This document shows, piece after piece, positions 27,141 through 56,520 of a DNA stretch of 64,000 nucleotides. The notes under the pieces are model-generated. The model was not told where the DNA came from. It did no database searches and saw only the letters and a program-made list of their open reading frames with translations. Position 1 is the first letter of the stretch. Every line of letters starts with the position of its first letter. The stretch spans positions 1 to 64,000 of the forward strand of contig NZ_BONV01000041.1 in the NCBI RefSeq assembly GCF_016862895.1. The letters run 5' to 3'. Position numbers and translations under genes: made by a program. The stretch is from Planotetraspora kaengkrachanensis. GTDB taxonomy: Bacteria; Actinomycetota; Actinomycetes; Streptosporangiales; Streptosporangiaceae.

Positions 27141-27275
27141 CCCTTGCTTCCAGTTCCGCCTACCGGGTTAGCTGACGGGTTCGGGCTGGAAGGCGCCCTA
27201 CGGCACGAGCTGTGCCGATTCACCCCAGGAGAGGTGGGTCCCCGGCTCCGCGATGACGCGGACTCGGCGGTGACG
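27141..27275 (-). ncRNA. Cyclic di-AMP riboswitch (ydaO/yuaA class)
   Basis: In the 5' leader of the CHAP gene the minus strand contains GGGGTGAATCGGCACAGC, then CCGAACCCGTCAGCTAACC and CGGTAGGCGG, ending in GGAAGCAAGGG. These are the conserved blocks of the ydaO/yuaA riboswitch, which binds c-di-AMP and turns off wall-hydrolase genes. Boundaries are approximate (the 5' arm was placed at CGCCGAGTCCGCG). The start codon follows 14 nt after the 3' end, compatible with control of transcription or translation. Confidence 0.88.
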
Positions 27276-27604
27276 GTCCTTCTTGACGGAAGTCCGCCAT
27301 CCGAGTGCAAACCTGCCTTTTCCTAACAAACAGGACAGGTATGCCTTGAGTTACCTAGAAGGTAATAGACGCATCCATACCGGTCAAGTAAGGGCAAGTC
27401 AGATTTTACGTGTCAAGGCCTGGACGGACGTCCGGACCACTGAATGTGGCGCGTCGATCCCCTGCTCCGCCGGGCGATCCGGATCGGGGGTAAAACCTCG
27501 CGCGATCGCAGTGAGCAGGGCGCCGGCTTTACGGTTAACCGCCATTCGACTCGGGGGTTGCCCACCATGGTGGCCGCTTTGCCCCGTGCCTACCGTTGAC
27601 CGAC

Positions 27605-29047: not shown

Positions 29048-31398
29048 CCACCCCTCTCCCTCGTGGTGAGGGCGGGGTGTCCAGCAGCACCTTCCACGGA
29101 CCGGCTCCCTTCCAGGCCGGGAGCCACTCCACTCAGAACAACTACTTCTCCGACACGCCGCGCACACTCGTGGCGTGGCCGCACCAGGTCGGGGTGCTGC
29201 CCAGGCGAGCCGACGGCTTCCAGCAGCGCAGCGCGGTCCGGTGGCTGGATGCCTCAGGAGCCGACGGAGGAACGGCGGTGCGTTGCCAGGTGTTGGCAGG
29301 CACCGGTGGGGTCGGCAAGACCCAACTGGCCGCCGACTACGCCCGCCGTGCCCTGGCCGAGGGGGATCTCGACCTGCTCGTATGGGTCACCGCCGCCAAC
29401 CGCGAGGCCATCGCCACCGCCTACGCTCAGGCCGCGGTCGAGGTCCTCGGCGCCGACCTGTCCCTGCCTGAGCAGGCCGCAGCACGGTTCCTGGCCTGGT
29501 TGGAACCCAAGCCGCCGGCGGAGGGCAGCAGATCCTGCCGGTGGCTGGTGGTTCTGGACGACGTGGCCGACCCGGCGGATCTACGGGGTCTGTGGCCGCC
29601 CGTCGGCCCGCACGGCAGAGCACTGGTCACCACCCGCCGCCGGGATGCCCTCCTGACAGGGCCAGGCCGCCACCTCGTACCCGTCGGTCTGTTCATTCCT
29701 GCCGAGGCCGCCTCCTACCTGACCACGTCCCTGGCAGCGCACGACCGCCACGACCGGCCCAGCGACATCCAGGCCCTGGCAGCCGCCCTGGGACACCTGC
29801 CGCTGGCTCTGGCCCAGGCGGCCGCCTACCTGATTGACGCCGGCCTGGACTGTGCTGACTACCGCGAACGCCTGGCCGACCGCGCCCACACCCTGTCCGA
29901 CCTGATTCCCGAGGACACCGGCCTGCCCGACGACCACCGCTCCACCGTGGCCGCCACCTGGTCCTTGTCGATCGAGTACGCGGACCGTATGCGCCCGCTG
30001 GGCCTCGCCCGCCCTGTGCTGCAACTGGCGGCGATGCTCGACCCCAACGGCATCCCCGCGGCCGTCCTCACAGCCCCCCCGGCGCTGGCCTGCCTCGCTG
30101 AACTACGCACCCGGGGCGCGAACACCGGCGGCAATGGCCGGGGAAGGCAGGTCAGCGCCCGGGATGCGACTGACGCGATGCGGTGCCTGCACCGGCTCAG
30201 TCTGGCCGACCACACCCCTGATACACCCCACCAGGCGATACGTGTGCACAACCTCATCCAACGGTCTGTCCGTGACTCCCTGCACGCAGACCAGTACGAC
30301 CGCCTCGCCCGCGTCGCCGCCGACGCCCTGATCGCCGCCTGGCCCGAGGTGGAACTCGACACGGCTCTCGCTCAAGCCCTGCGCGCCAACACCGACACCC
30401 TCACCCGCCACGCCGAGGACGCTCTGTGGCGCCCCGACGCCCACCGTGTCCTGTACCGAGCGGGCAGAAGCCTCGGTGAATCCGGCCAGGTCACCACTGC
30501 CGTTTCGTACTTCCGGCACCTGGTCCGTGCCGCTCACGATCACCTCGGCCCGGACCATCCCGACACCCTGGAGGCCCGGAACAATCTCGCTCGGTGGCAG
30601 GGGGAGGCGGGAGACCCGGCCGGAGCCGCAGATGCCCTCGCCGAACTGGAGGAGCACACGCAGCGTGTGCTGGGCCCGGACCACTCTCACACCCTGGAGG
30701 CCCGCCACGACCTCGCCAACTGGCGGGGGGAGGCAGGAGACTCGGCCGCAGCCGTAGCCTCCCTCGTCGAAGTGCTGGCCGACCGGGAGCGGGTGCAGGG
30801 CCCGGACTACCTGTACACGCTGGATGCCCGCCACGACCTCGCCCGGTGGCGGGGGGAGGCGGGAGACCCGGCCGGAGCCGCAGCCGCCTTCGCCGAATTG
30901 CTGGAGCACCTCCTGCGAGTACTGGGCCCGGACCACCGCTTCACGCTGGACGCCCGCCACAACCTCGCCCGGTGGAAGGGAGAAGCGGGAGACCCCGCCG
31001 GAGCCGCAGCCGCGTCTTTCGAGGTACTGGAGCACATGCTGCGTGTACTGGGCCCGGACCACCGGTACACGCTGGCCGCCCGGAGTAACCACGCCAGGTG
31101 GCTGGGGAAGGCAGGGAATGCGACTGGAGCCGCCACCGCCTACGCCGAACTGTTGGAGCACTGCTTGCGGGTGCTGGGCCCCGACCATCCCGACACCCTC
31201 GCCACACGGCATGGCCTGGCCCGGTGGCGGGGTGAGGCCGGCGACGCGGCCGGAGCGGCCACCGCGTTCGCCGAATTGCTCGGCGACCGGGTGCGGGTGC
31301 TGGGCCCCGACCACCCCGACACACTTACCACCCGAGTCAACCTCGCCGACTGGCAAAGAAAGGCAGCCGAGTCTGCTGTTCGCGAATCGACCGATTGA
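29044..31398 (+). CDS. NB-ARC/TPR STAND NTPase (bacterial NLR-like protein)
   Basis: 784 aa. Residues 16-35 (TFHGPAPFQAGSHSTQNNYF) mirror the C-terminal motif of the preceding protein with 11 of 20 identities. NB-ARC follows: Walker A GTGGVGKT at 86-93, Walker B WLVVLDDVADP at 167-177, sensor ALVTTRRR at 193-200, GLPL-type LGHLPLALAQAA near 249-260. A winged-helix/linker region leads to seven 42-residue TPR-type repeats (consensus LGPDHPDTLEARNNLARW) from about residue 501. Expected behaviour: ligand sensing by the repeats, ATP-driven oligomerisation, and motif-templated activation of the small partner. Translation is coupled to the partner. Confidence 0.88.
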   Translation: MTTPLPRGEGGVSSSTFHGPAPFQAGSHSTQNNYFSDTPRTLVAWPHQVGVLPRRADGFQQRSAVRWLDASGADGGTAVRCQVLAGTGGVGKTQLAADYARRALAEGDLDLLVWVTAANREAIATAYAQAAVEVLGADLSLPEQAAARFLAWLEPKPPAEGSRSCRWLVVLDDVADPADLRGLWPPVGPHGRALVTTRRRDALLTGPGRHLVPVGLFIPAEAASYLTTSLAAHDRHDRPSDIQALAAALGHLPLALAQAAAYLIDAGLDCADYRERLADRAHTLSDLIPEDTGLPDDHRSTVAATWSLSIEYADRMRPLGLARPVLQLAAMLDPNGIPAAVLTAPPALACLAELRTRGANTGGNGRGRQVSARDATDAMRCLHRLSLADHTPDTPHQAIRVHNLIQRSVRDSLHADQYDRLARVAADALIAAWPEVELDTALAQALRANTDTLTRHAEDALWRPDAHRVLYRAGRSLGESGQVTTAVSYFRHLVRAAHDHLGPDHPDTLEARNNLARWQGEAGDPAGAADALAELEEHTQRVLGPDHSHTLEARHDLANWRGEAGDSAAAVASLVEVLADRERVQGPDYLYTLDARHDLARWRGEAGDPAGAAAAFAELLEHLLRVLGPDHRFTLDARHNLARWKGEAGDPAGAAAASFEVLEHMLRVLGPDHRYTLAARSNHARWLGKAGNATGAATAYAELLEHCLRVLGPDHPDTLATRHGLARWRGEAGDAAGAATAFAELLGDRVRVLGPDHPDTLTTRVNLADWQRKAAESAVRESTD
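30544..31395 (+). repeat. Seven in-frame 126-bp repeats encoding the TPR array
   Basis: The codons for LGPDH recur from 30544 to 31300 at exact 126-bp steps (six full units and a partial seventh). Units 3-4 are especially alike at DNA level (CGGTGG...GAGGCGGGAGACCCGGCC), a sign of recent duplication or gene conversion. Such arrays vary in copy number between alleles of sensor proteins. Confidence 0.85.
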
Positions 31399-49571: not shown

Positions 49572-49803
49572 TCCCGCGCAGGCCCGCCACCTCCGGAGTG
49601 TGATCCGCCTGCCCCCGGGGTGTGATCCGCCCGCCCCCGGGGCGTGATCATGCACAGATTCGCCGAAACGCCCGCTGAGCTGGGACGACGCTTTTCGTGA
49701 TCATGCATGGATTCGGCGCCGAGCCGTCCGACCTGGGCGGAGACACTTGGTGATCATGCAGTTGGGTCCGGGAAAAGGGTTTGCGGTGAATACAGAGGTC
49801 CGG
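49569..49803. repeat. 53-bp-period TGATCATGCA repeat array A
   Basis: TGATCATGCA starts at 49645, 49698 and 49751, exactly 53 bp apart. The first two heads continue similarly (CAGATTCGCCG, TGGATTCGGCG), the third is degenerate. Shorter TGATCC heads precede them at 49569, 49601 and 49623 (32- and 22-bp steps). The rest of each unit is variable GC-rich DNA. The period is not a multiple of three and no reading frame crosses it well. The same family occurs at 55310-55616. Confidence 0.8.
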
Positions 49804-54847: not shown

Positions 54848-55297
54848 ATGAGCGGGTTCGAGATTGGCACCGATGGACCTCAGCGGATCATGGTGGGGAT
54901 CGACGGCTCGGACACCTCGCTCCGGGCCGTCGCCTACGCGTGGGGGCTGGCCCGCCGCCAGGGCTCTCAGCTGGTCTTCGTGTTCGCCGCGACCTCCAAC
55001 ACGATCACCTCGTTCGTTCCCGACGCCACCGCGTCCGCCATCATGGCCGGCCATGAGGTCGCGGCCGACCTGCGTGAACGAGTGGCCAAGGTCTCGGAGA
55101 CCATCCATCCTGCGGTGCCGTACGTCTTCCGCGTCGAGCACGGGGACGCCGCGGGTGTGCTGATCCGCGTCGCCGACGAGGTCAGGGCGGACGCCGTAGT
55201 GGTCGGCGCCTCGGTTCAGGCAGGCCACCGCATCATGGGTTCGGTGGCGATCCGCCTCGTCCGCGCCGGCCGGTGGCCGGTCACCGTCGTCCCCTGA
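54848..55297 (+). CDS. Universal stress protein (UspA) family
   Basis: 149 aa single USP domain. RIMVGIDGSDTSLRAVAYAW is the N-terminal strand-helix; ADAVVVGASVQAGHRIMGSV and VAIRLVRAGRWPVTVVP give the ATP-binding G-x2-G-x9-G(S/T)-like region, here with an altered middle (A-S-V-Q-A-G-H), so ATP binding may be weakened. Its stop is followed 12 bp later by repeat array B. Confidence 0.85.
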   Translation: MSGFEIGTDGPQRIMVGIDGSDTSLRAVAYAWGLARRQGSQLVFVFAATSNTITSFVPDATASAIMAGHEVAADLRERVAKVSETIHPAVPYVFRVEHGDAAGVLIRVADEVRADAVVVGASVQAGHRIMGSVAIRLVRAGRWPVTVVP

Positions 55298-55309
55298 CCC
55301 CCTTGGGTG

Positions 55310-55654
55310 TGATCATGCACAGGTTCGGGCGGTGCCGGCGTCACCTGCGCGGATTCCCGCCGTGATCATGCACACCTTCGGCGAAGTGCCCGCCGACCTC
55401 GCCGGACGACATGCGTGATCATGCGATGTGCGCCCCCGACAAGGTACGGCCGGCGGAACGACGGCAACACCACACACCGGCGCCGCATCCGCCCCCGACG
55501 TGCATGATCACGAACGGCCTTTCCCCTGCTCACAACCACTCCGGACGAATCCATGCATGATCACGGGTGGGGTTTCGCCAGCTCAGGCATGCGACTCACG
55601 AACCTGTCCATGATCACGCCCATGGGACATGATCACACCCATGGGACATGATCA
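55310..55654. repeat. 53-bp-period TGATCATGCA repeat array B, in head-facing halves
   Basis: Forward heads TGATCATGCA/G start at 55310, 55363 and 55416. Inverted heads (TGCATGATCA or TCCATGATCA) end at 55510, 55563 and 55616. Every step is exactly 53 bp in both halves, so the array is a dyad with its centre near 55463. Two further inverted heads at 55626 and 55645 follow at 19-bp steps. Conserved unit start: TGATCATGCA then two variable bases, then G/C-N-TTCG. The remainder of each unit is variable. Confidence 0.85.
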
Positions 55655-55694
55655 CGCCCATGGGAGGGGGGCGGCCGCAGGGGCCTGATGGGAC

Positions 55695-55739
55695 GACACT
55701 TGACCCCGCAACACTTGAGCCCGCGACACTTGACCCCAC
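55695..55739. repeat. Three 15-bp tandem repeats upstream of the SRPBCC gene
   Basis: GACACTTGACCCCGC, AACACTTGAGCCCGC and GACACTTGACCCCAC follow without gaps. They lie 32 bp before the SRPBCC start and could contain promoter-like TTGACC/TTGAGC hexamers at regular spacing. Confidence 0.7.
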
Positions 55740-55770
55740 GACGTCGCCTGACAAAGCGAGGAGCCCTGAC

Positions 55771-56520
55771 ATGACGCATCCGTTCGAGGTCAACGAGGAA
55801 ATCGAACTCGACGCCTCTCCCGAACAGGTGTGGGACGCGATCGCGTCCGGGCCGGGCGTCGACTCCTGGTTCATGGGGAGCACGGAGATCGAGCCCCGCG
55901 AGGGCGGCCGGGGCCACATGACCCTGATGGGCGTCACCGCCCATTCCACCGTGACCGCGTGGGAGCCGGGCAGGCGTTTCGCCTATCGCACCGATGACAA
56001 CCCCGACGGCACGTTCATGGCGCTCGAGTACATCATCGAGGGACGCGGTGGGAGCGGCACGACCCTCAGATTTGTGCACAGCGGCTTCCTCGGGGACGAC
56101 TGGGAGGCCGAGTACGACGCGATGTCCAAGGGCGACGGCATGTACCTGCGCAAGCTCGCCGCCTACCTCGAGCACTTCTCCGGCCGGACCGCGACGTCCA
56201 ACCTGTTCGCTCCCGGTCCGCGCGTCACCGATCCCGATCGCGCCTTCCGGGTCATCGCGGACGCTCTGGGGCTGACCGGGACGCCCGCGGCCGGCGACCG
56301 CGTCAAGGTCGGCGCGCAGGGCCTCGCACCCGAGGAGGGAGTCGTCGTCTTCGCCGAGACGCCCTTCTGCCTGGGCGTGGTCACCGCCGAGGCGCTCTAC
56401 ACCTTCATCCACGGCTACCAGGAGGTCATCGTCCTGGAACGCCACGGCTTCACGGACGAGGCCGACGCCAAGAAGGCCGAAGCCGCCTGGCAGTCCTGGT
56501 TCTCCCGCGCGTTCGCCTGA
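55771..56520 (+). CDS. SRPBCC-domain (AHSA1-like) protein
   Basis: 249 aa. NEEIELDASPEQVWDAIASG, WFMGSTEIEPREGGRGHMTL and GTTLRFVHSGFLGDDWEAEY place the N-terminal 150 residues in the START-like superfamily. The C-terminal 100 residues (PAAGDRVKVGAQGLAPEEGV, FIHGYQEVIVLERHGF) form an extra alpha-beta domain often seen in this group. The ATG at 55771 has GAGGAG upstream; the open reading back to 55648 covers the tandem repeats and is not needed. Confidence 0.83.
   Translation: MTHPFEVNEEIELDASPEQVWDAIASGPGVDSWFMGSTEIEPREGGRGHMTLMGVTAHSTVTAWEPGRRFAYRTDDNPDGTFMALEYIIEGRGGSGTTLRFVHSGFLGDDWEAEYDAMSKGDGMYLRKLAAYLEHFSGRTATSNLFAPGPRVTDPDRAFRVIADALGLTGTPAAGDRVKVGAQGLAPEEGVVVFAETPFCLGVVTAEALYTFIHGYQEVIVLERHGFTDEADAKKAEAAWQSWFSRAFA

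Follow-up and report, generated by a model that had tools for sequence, protein, structure and literature searches.

Mirror-symmetric arrays of 53-bp units at gene ends in Planotetraspora and related Streptosporangiaceae: putative sites of an unidentified DNA-binding protein

The window, a stretch of 64,000 nucleotides from the genome of the soil actinobacterium Planotetraspora kaengkrachanensis, contains between two genes of the same strand an array of short conserved words (heads) that extends from 55309 to 55617 (Table 1). Three forward heads starting at 55310, 55363, and 55416 face three inverted heads (55501–55510, 55554–55563, and 55607–55616) around a midpoint near 55463; the third forward head, which reads TGATCATGCG, and the last inverted one have one mismatch each. 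This layout and its exact 53-bp steps had been given in a preliminary description, and the sequence bears them out. Of the extent proposed there, 55310–55654, the array itself is real, whereas the right end cuts through a 19-bp tandem triplet. With at most one mismatch allowed, the head word has 15 matches in the window versus 1.65 expected, i.e., an approximately ninefold excess (0/100 shuffles). A second array, several tandem repeats, and a riboswitch are also located in the window.

Table 1. Features of the window. Protein types were assigned by inspection of the sequence, without a family search.
Feature	Positions	Strand	Sequence and remarks
Upstream gene	54848–55297	+	Universal-stress-type protein; 3' end abuts the array
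Outer flank	55298–55308	+	CCCCCTTGGGT, from the stop codon to the first head; outer flanks are C-rich in all lineages examined
Forward unit 1	55309–55361	+	Head GTGATCATGCAC 55309–55320; TTCG 55324–55327; box TCACCTG 55341–55347
Forward unit 2	55362–55414	+	Head GTGATCATGCAC 55362–55373; TTCG 55377–55380; box CGACCTC 55394–55400
Terminal forward head	55415–55425	+	GTGATCATGCG, 53 bp past unit 2
Dyad center	55426–55500	.	75 bp separating the facing inner heads
Innermost (terminal) inverted head	55501–55511	-	TGCATGATCAC
Inverted unit	55512–55564	-	Head 55554–55564; CGAA 55546–55549; box CTGCTCA 55526–55532
Inverted unit	55565–55617	-	Head TCCATGATCAC 55607–55617; CGAA 55599–55602; box CAGCTCA 55579–55585
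19-bp tandem	55609–55665	-	CATGATCACGCCCATGGGA, three copies; overlaps the last head and adds two head-like words at 19-bp steps
15-bp tandem	55693–55742		ACGACACTTGACCCC, 3.3 copies; between the dyad and the next gene
Downstream gene	55771–56520	+	SRPBCC-type protein
Second array	49644–49760	+	Forward-only heads at 49645, 49698, and 49751; 73 bp past a gene on the + strand
22-bp tandem	49593–49649		CCGGGGTGTGATCCGCCCGCCC, 2.6 copies; runs straight into the second array, GTGATC being common to both
126/252-bp tandem	30547–31322		6.2 copies; apparently coding
c-di-AMP (ydaO/yuaA) riboswitch	27142–27279	-	92 bits

The whole genome (8.77 Mb) carries 811 exact copies of TGATCATGCA (394 + 417), versus 1 + 0 for the reversed control. 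The preliminary description had named many intergenic arrays of the same period as a finding that would lend support. This condition was fulfilled: 864 kb of the genome contain approximately 25 clusters with exact 53-bp steps, and only 1/110 own-genome heads is coding; the opposite outcome, a word as common in coding DNA and a period found only here, did not materialize. Of 77 same-strand steps below 400 bp in these 864 kb, 64 are exactly 53 bp and five are 106 bp. A 41-position matrix, used with a threshold at which a shuffled contig yields no units, finds 91 units. The count of 24 clusters in 864 kb extrapolates to about 240 arrays in the genome, spread along the contigs; base-by-base reading covered only about 10% of this genome and samples of others.

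Array geometry was studied in a set of 143 distinct arrays, for which 99 loci were taken from other records of Planotetraspora and Microbispora. Convergent arrangements, with arms facing inward, constitute 66 of these, 43 arrays are forward-only and 34 reverse-only (77 one-sided, 54%), and none is divergent. Same-strand steps equal 53 bp in 347 of 373 cases, 52 bp in 14, and 54 bp in 8. In nearly all convergent arrays, each arm terminates on its inner side in one additional head. Facing heads are most often separated by 13 bp in Planotetraspora and by 2 bp in Microbispora and g34, and inner gaps form no clean 10.5-bp series of helical turns. The halves of a dyad are sometimes 0.8–3 kb apart, mostly with one gene between them; a mobile gene in this place was considered and dismissed, as the genes look ordinary (TypA, aldehyde dehydrogenase, GNAT, peptidase; judged from their sequences alone, with no family search).

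The 53-bp unit has a consensus composed of the head CGTGATCATGCAC, TTCG at +14 to +17, the box C(C/T)GACCTGC at +30 to +38, and an A/C preference at +43/+44. Conservation thus is not restricted to approximately the first 18 bp, as had been stated in the preliminary description: the third box (YGACCTGC, +31 to +38) and the weaker positions +43/+44 also recur. When 12 arrays were aligned with their counterparts in a P. mira-like genome (G161), identity was 95% for the heads, 94% for TTCG, 83% for the third box, and 66% for the remainder of the unit, compared with 80–97% in the flanking DNA. Whole units have been gained and lost between the two genomes, and the 53-bp steps are maintained despite the drift of the spacers. 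Spacers that have diverged so far should have lost their length by insertions and deletions, and hence these alignments suggest that the unit length itself is probably under constraint. The earlier proposal that all heads lie on one face of the DNA is consistent with this constancy and with a step close to five helical turns (5 × 10.5 = 52.5 bp), although no binding data exist.

Outside the conserved boxes the units differ even within an array. Neighboring units are 0.40 identical at variable positions, and just 4% of them exceed 0.8; spacers of separate arrays are unrelated, and no exact unit is common to two arrays. Facing arms have an identity of 0.37 versus 0.33 for unrelated arms, i.e., they vary independently. 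As 53 mod 3 = 2 and TGATCA gives TGA on both strands, the arrays contain stops in three frames; a role as three-frame stop codons was rejected, since it leaves the other boxes unexplained.

Among named records, arrays of the Planotetraspora type are found almost only in Planotetraspora, and the genomes with the largest share of them likewise belong to this genus. Steps of the form GTGATC-N47-GTGATC number 164–697 per Planotetraspora genome, 444 in g42, and 51 and 220 in g34. Five Microbispora genomes contain 163 (G097), 54 (G163), 51 (G014), 45 (G101), and 9 (G135), and ten others have 0–3, which is background. The 53-bp architecture with genus-specific head words is present in Microbispora and two further genera of Streptosporangiaceae. 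The Microbispora element often is a module of approximately 236 bp, with an outer unit GTGATCTTGTAGTTTGTCGCA, an inner unit GTGATCATGCAG, and a 24-bp palindromic core GTGATCTTGCAATTGCAAGATCAC, followed by the mirror image, whereas in g34 the head GTGATCTTGC precedes an A/T-rich triplet and CTCGCA. At a purine-catabolism-like locus, three genera have a 53-bp array in the same intergenic slot, each in a spelling of its own, and in most other Microbispora this slot is empty or retains only a remnant. Array positions are orthologous between species and between genera. The combination of positional inheritance with genome-wide respelling points to a trans-acting factor that has changed together with all its sites, and is the strongest argument for such a factor. 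In another Streptosporangiaceae genome (G008, g3; L294, L298), 28-bp palindromes GTGATCTTG...CAAGATCAC with compensated middles stand 53 bp apart, alongside a repeated flanking stretch.

In a class-wide sample of 217 genomes, which is thin per genus, the 11-mer GTGATCWTGCA mostly does not exceed background. It has, however, 414 copies in G278 (f32), 328 and 45 in G337 and G276 (f30), 90 in G396 (f42), and, in f33, 27 copies in G304 and 35 in G319. The downstream sequence in these four families is different, whereas the C-rich outer flank recurs. The head steps there are 22, 31, 34, or 37 bp rather than 53 bp, and hence helical phasing is not general. Distribution may be uneven even within a genus, with 328 heads in G337 versus one in its congener G293. 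Head words also occur in a shorter lattice, e.g., an eleven-head run with 22-bp steps and one gap (G276:C9:47885-48137). The f33 genomes G304 and G319 (L310-L315) have inverted head pairs of a constant 60 bp, with stems compensated at 12 positions.

Such a distribution, with many intergenic copies scattered patchily across species and arrays decayed or lost in some Microbispora, might be produced by non-autonomous mobile repeats of the REP/BIME or MITE kind, which a transposase would disseminate and which would be tolerated at the ends of genes; the fixed 60-bp inverted pair of f33 with its compensated stems also resembles these. We nevertheless regard such an origin as rather improbable. Firstly, of 19 array-bearing genomes, 13 have no match to the RAYT transposase domain Y1_Tnp (PF01797), among them the one studied here (G000, G060, G149, G161, G177, G097, G163, G278, G337, G276, G396, G304, and G319), and an REP/RAYT origin was rejected on this ground. 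Secondly, the spacers are unrelated from array to array, without a single exact unit in common, and orthologous positions are maintained between species and genera. Finally, inspection by eye revealed no target duplication at the ends of the Microbispora elements.

The arrays avoid genes. Only 7 of 342 heads (2%) in seven genomes from several families are located within called genes, with about 85% of the DNA coding; genes were called with a purpose-written simple codon model and not taken from annotation. This scarcity bears on the idea that heads are DNA-uptake or transfer signals that accumulate through biased exchange and, like the DUS of Neisseriaceae (PMC3630211), have dialects specific to clades. 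High copy number, dialects, and patchiness would fit, and ComEC is encoded in every genome tested. It is, however, equally present in array-bearing and array-negative genomes and does not discriminate between them, and the near absence of coding heads is unfavorable. We know of no uptake words organized in phased, oriented arrays, and consider an uptake role very improbable.

Only 6/100 clusters lie in divergent intergenic regions, whereas this type accounts for 284/862 intergenic regions with a length of 100 bp or more (Fisher p = 7e-10). Of 199 outer edges, 135 are directed toward the 3' end of a gene, mostly 0–30 bp from the stop codon, and in 28 of these the TGA of the head itself is the stop codon. 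The preference for 3' ends is a bias and not a strict rule, as about one-third of the outer edges point to the 5' end of a gene; tRNA genes, considered as the missing 3' ends in the latter cases, were not found within 150 bp. DNA beyond the outermost head is C-rich and G-poor in all lineages examined. In cases in which the stop codon is part of the head, positions -20 to -11 are 0.66 C and 0.09 G, versus 0.35–0.39 C and 0.34 G at control stops.

Both the C-rich, G-poor flank and the location at gene 3' ends might point to elements acting in the RNA, the C-rich tract causing Rho-dependent termination and the facing heads forming hairpins that end or protect mRNAs; in the hairpin that the f33 pair does form, 12 base pairs are compensated. 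In Planotetraspora, by contrast, the arms are non-complementary outside the boxes, and since they vary independently, RNA pairing is disfavored in this clade. A long RNA hairpin formed by the two arms was rejected, as no covariation was seen beyond the boxes, and a possible stem CAGGTTCGG/CCGACCTG of the present genome is lost in G104, which reads GAAGTTCGG. Nor would an RNA element need an exact 53-bp step, a single arm is all there is in 54% of arrays, and no gene reads into one-third of the arms. Comparison of the array with Rfam models gave no match at gathering level, just one at chance level (E 0.21). RNA-level action seems quite improbable. Replacement of intrinsic terminators was another candidate: gene ends with an array less often have a strong hairpin (below -30 kcal/mol; 10/104) than do other ends (43/168). 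We set it aside, since the signal is weak, hairpin z-scores do not differ between the two groups, and base composition confounds the rarity.

The architecture, spacing, conservation, location, and genus-specific respelling of the arrays are direct observations. Strict length, conserved boxes, independent drift of the arms, and coordinated respelling fit recognition of DNA by a protein, and protein binding is well supported by this inference, albeit without binding data. We tentatively favor the explanation that the arrays are cooperative sites for an unidentified sequence-specific protein forming a two-sided barrier at the ends of transcription units. One such protein would read GTGATC(A/T)TGCA together with the adjoining TTCG/TCGCA and YGACCTG boxes on double-stranded DNA. 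With sites at every five helical turns, bound copies may touch on one face and bind cooperatively, which likewise is inferred. A polymerase leaving either flanking gene would meet sites in the same orientation, and a filled array could act as a two-sided barrier or insulator. Given the invariably inward orientation of the arms and their position at the ends of transcription units, we take the barrier or insulator role as the most likely one; it is only suggested by location, no expression data being available, and a function in transcriptional insulation or termination remains an inference. No clear candidate for the binding factor emerged among array neighbors shared across distant lineages or genes beside the few divergent arrays.

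The nearest rival to the barrier model is a role in chromosome organization or replication, in which phased protein arrays would serve for bridging, segregation, or fork arrest and stand at gene ends because they do least harm there. The extrapolated number of about 240 arrays per genome and their spread along contigs, the mirror symmetry, and the avoidance of coding DNA and promoters all agree with this. On the other hand, a distance of 0–30 bp from stop codons is tighter than avoidance of harm would require, and we consider such roles unlikely, though not to be neglected.

If a protein does bind the arrays, these bacteria possess a system devoted to marking or insulating gene ends across the genome by means of multi-site complexes, and they are organisms in which transcription termination is poorly understood. 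The genus-specific spelling would be a clean case of one factor evolving together with hundreds of sites. As array presence is patchy within single genera, the missing factor should be findable by comparison. It is possible, but by no means established, that all this represents a new actinobacterial nucleoprotein system, comprising an unknown protein, phased arrays with mirror symmetry and co-evolved genus-specific spelling at hundreds of boundaries of transcription units, and simpler relatives in four other actinobacterial families.

No description of such arrays was found in the open-access literature, most subscription papers being outside the search. SlmA, Noc, and MatP are DNA-binding proteins each of which has single short sites dispersed over a chromosome. 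The present arrays are similarly dispersed, but they are ordered, multi-site, and located at gene ends. The preliminary description had excluded CRISPR, REP/BIME, and ERIC, and our data support this for the first two. CRISPR arrays consist of near-identical repeats of about 20–50 bp in a single orientation with unique spacers, whereas here the conserved head is about 12 bp, a second box lies within the spacer, and the halves are mirrored. ERIC has an imperfect palindrome (about 127 bp) in its center with a core that is conserved, and no core of this kind was seen in the array units (by inspection only, with no alignment). BIME/REP of γ-proteobacteria are short extragenic repeats that occur by the hundreds close to gene ends, in groups with inverted orientation and regular spacing (PMC2817692). 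The arrays share with them extragenic location, more than 100 copies, inverted regular groups, and clade-specific words, but most of the array-bearing genomes lack the Y1 transposase family, and the units form no hairpins in this clade and run in one direction before being mirrored rather than alternating, on an exact 53-bp lattice. Their consensus consists of boxes and the mirrored arms do not covary, so they are not palindromic repeats of the REP type. Uptake sequences are frequent in coding sequence as well. The DUS of Neisseriaceae is a short over-represented word with clade dialects (PMC3630211); the present heads are almost absent from coding DNA and belong to long multi-box units in phased arrays. 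MIRU, dispersed tandem repeats of actinobacteria, are 46–101 bp long and occupy 41 loci (PMC3914561), and a 53-bp form exists (PMC2453075). No direct comparison with MIRU sequences was made, and the distinction rests on organization: MIRU are tandems of nearly identical units, whereas array units share only boxes, their spacers differ, the arrays have mirrored halves, and the head word does not exceed background in most of the actinobacteria sampled.
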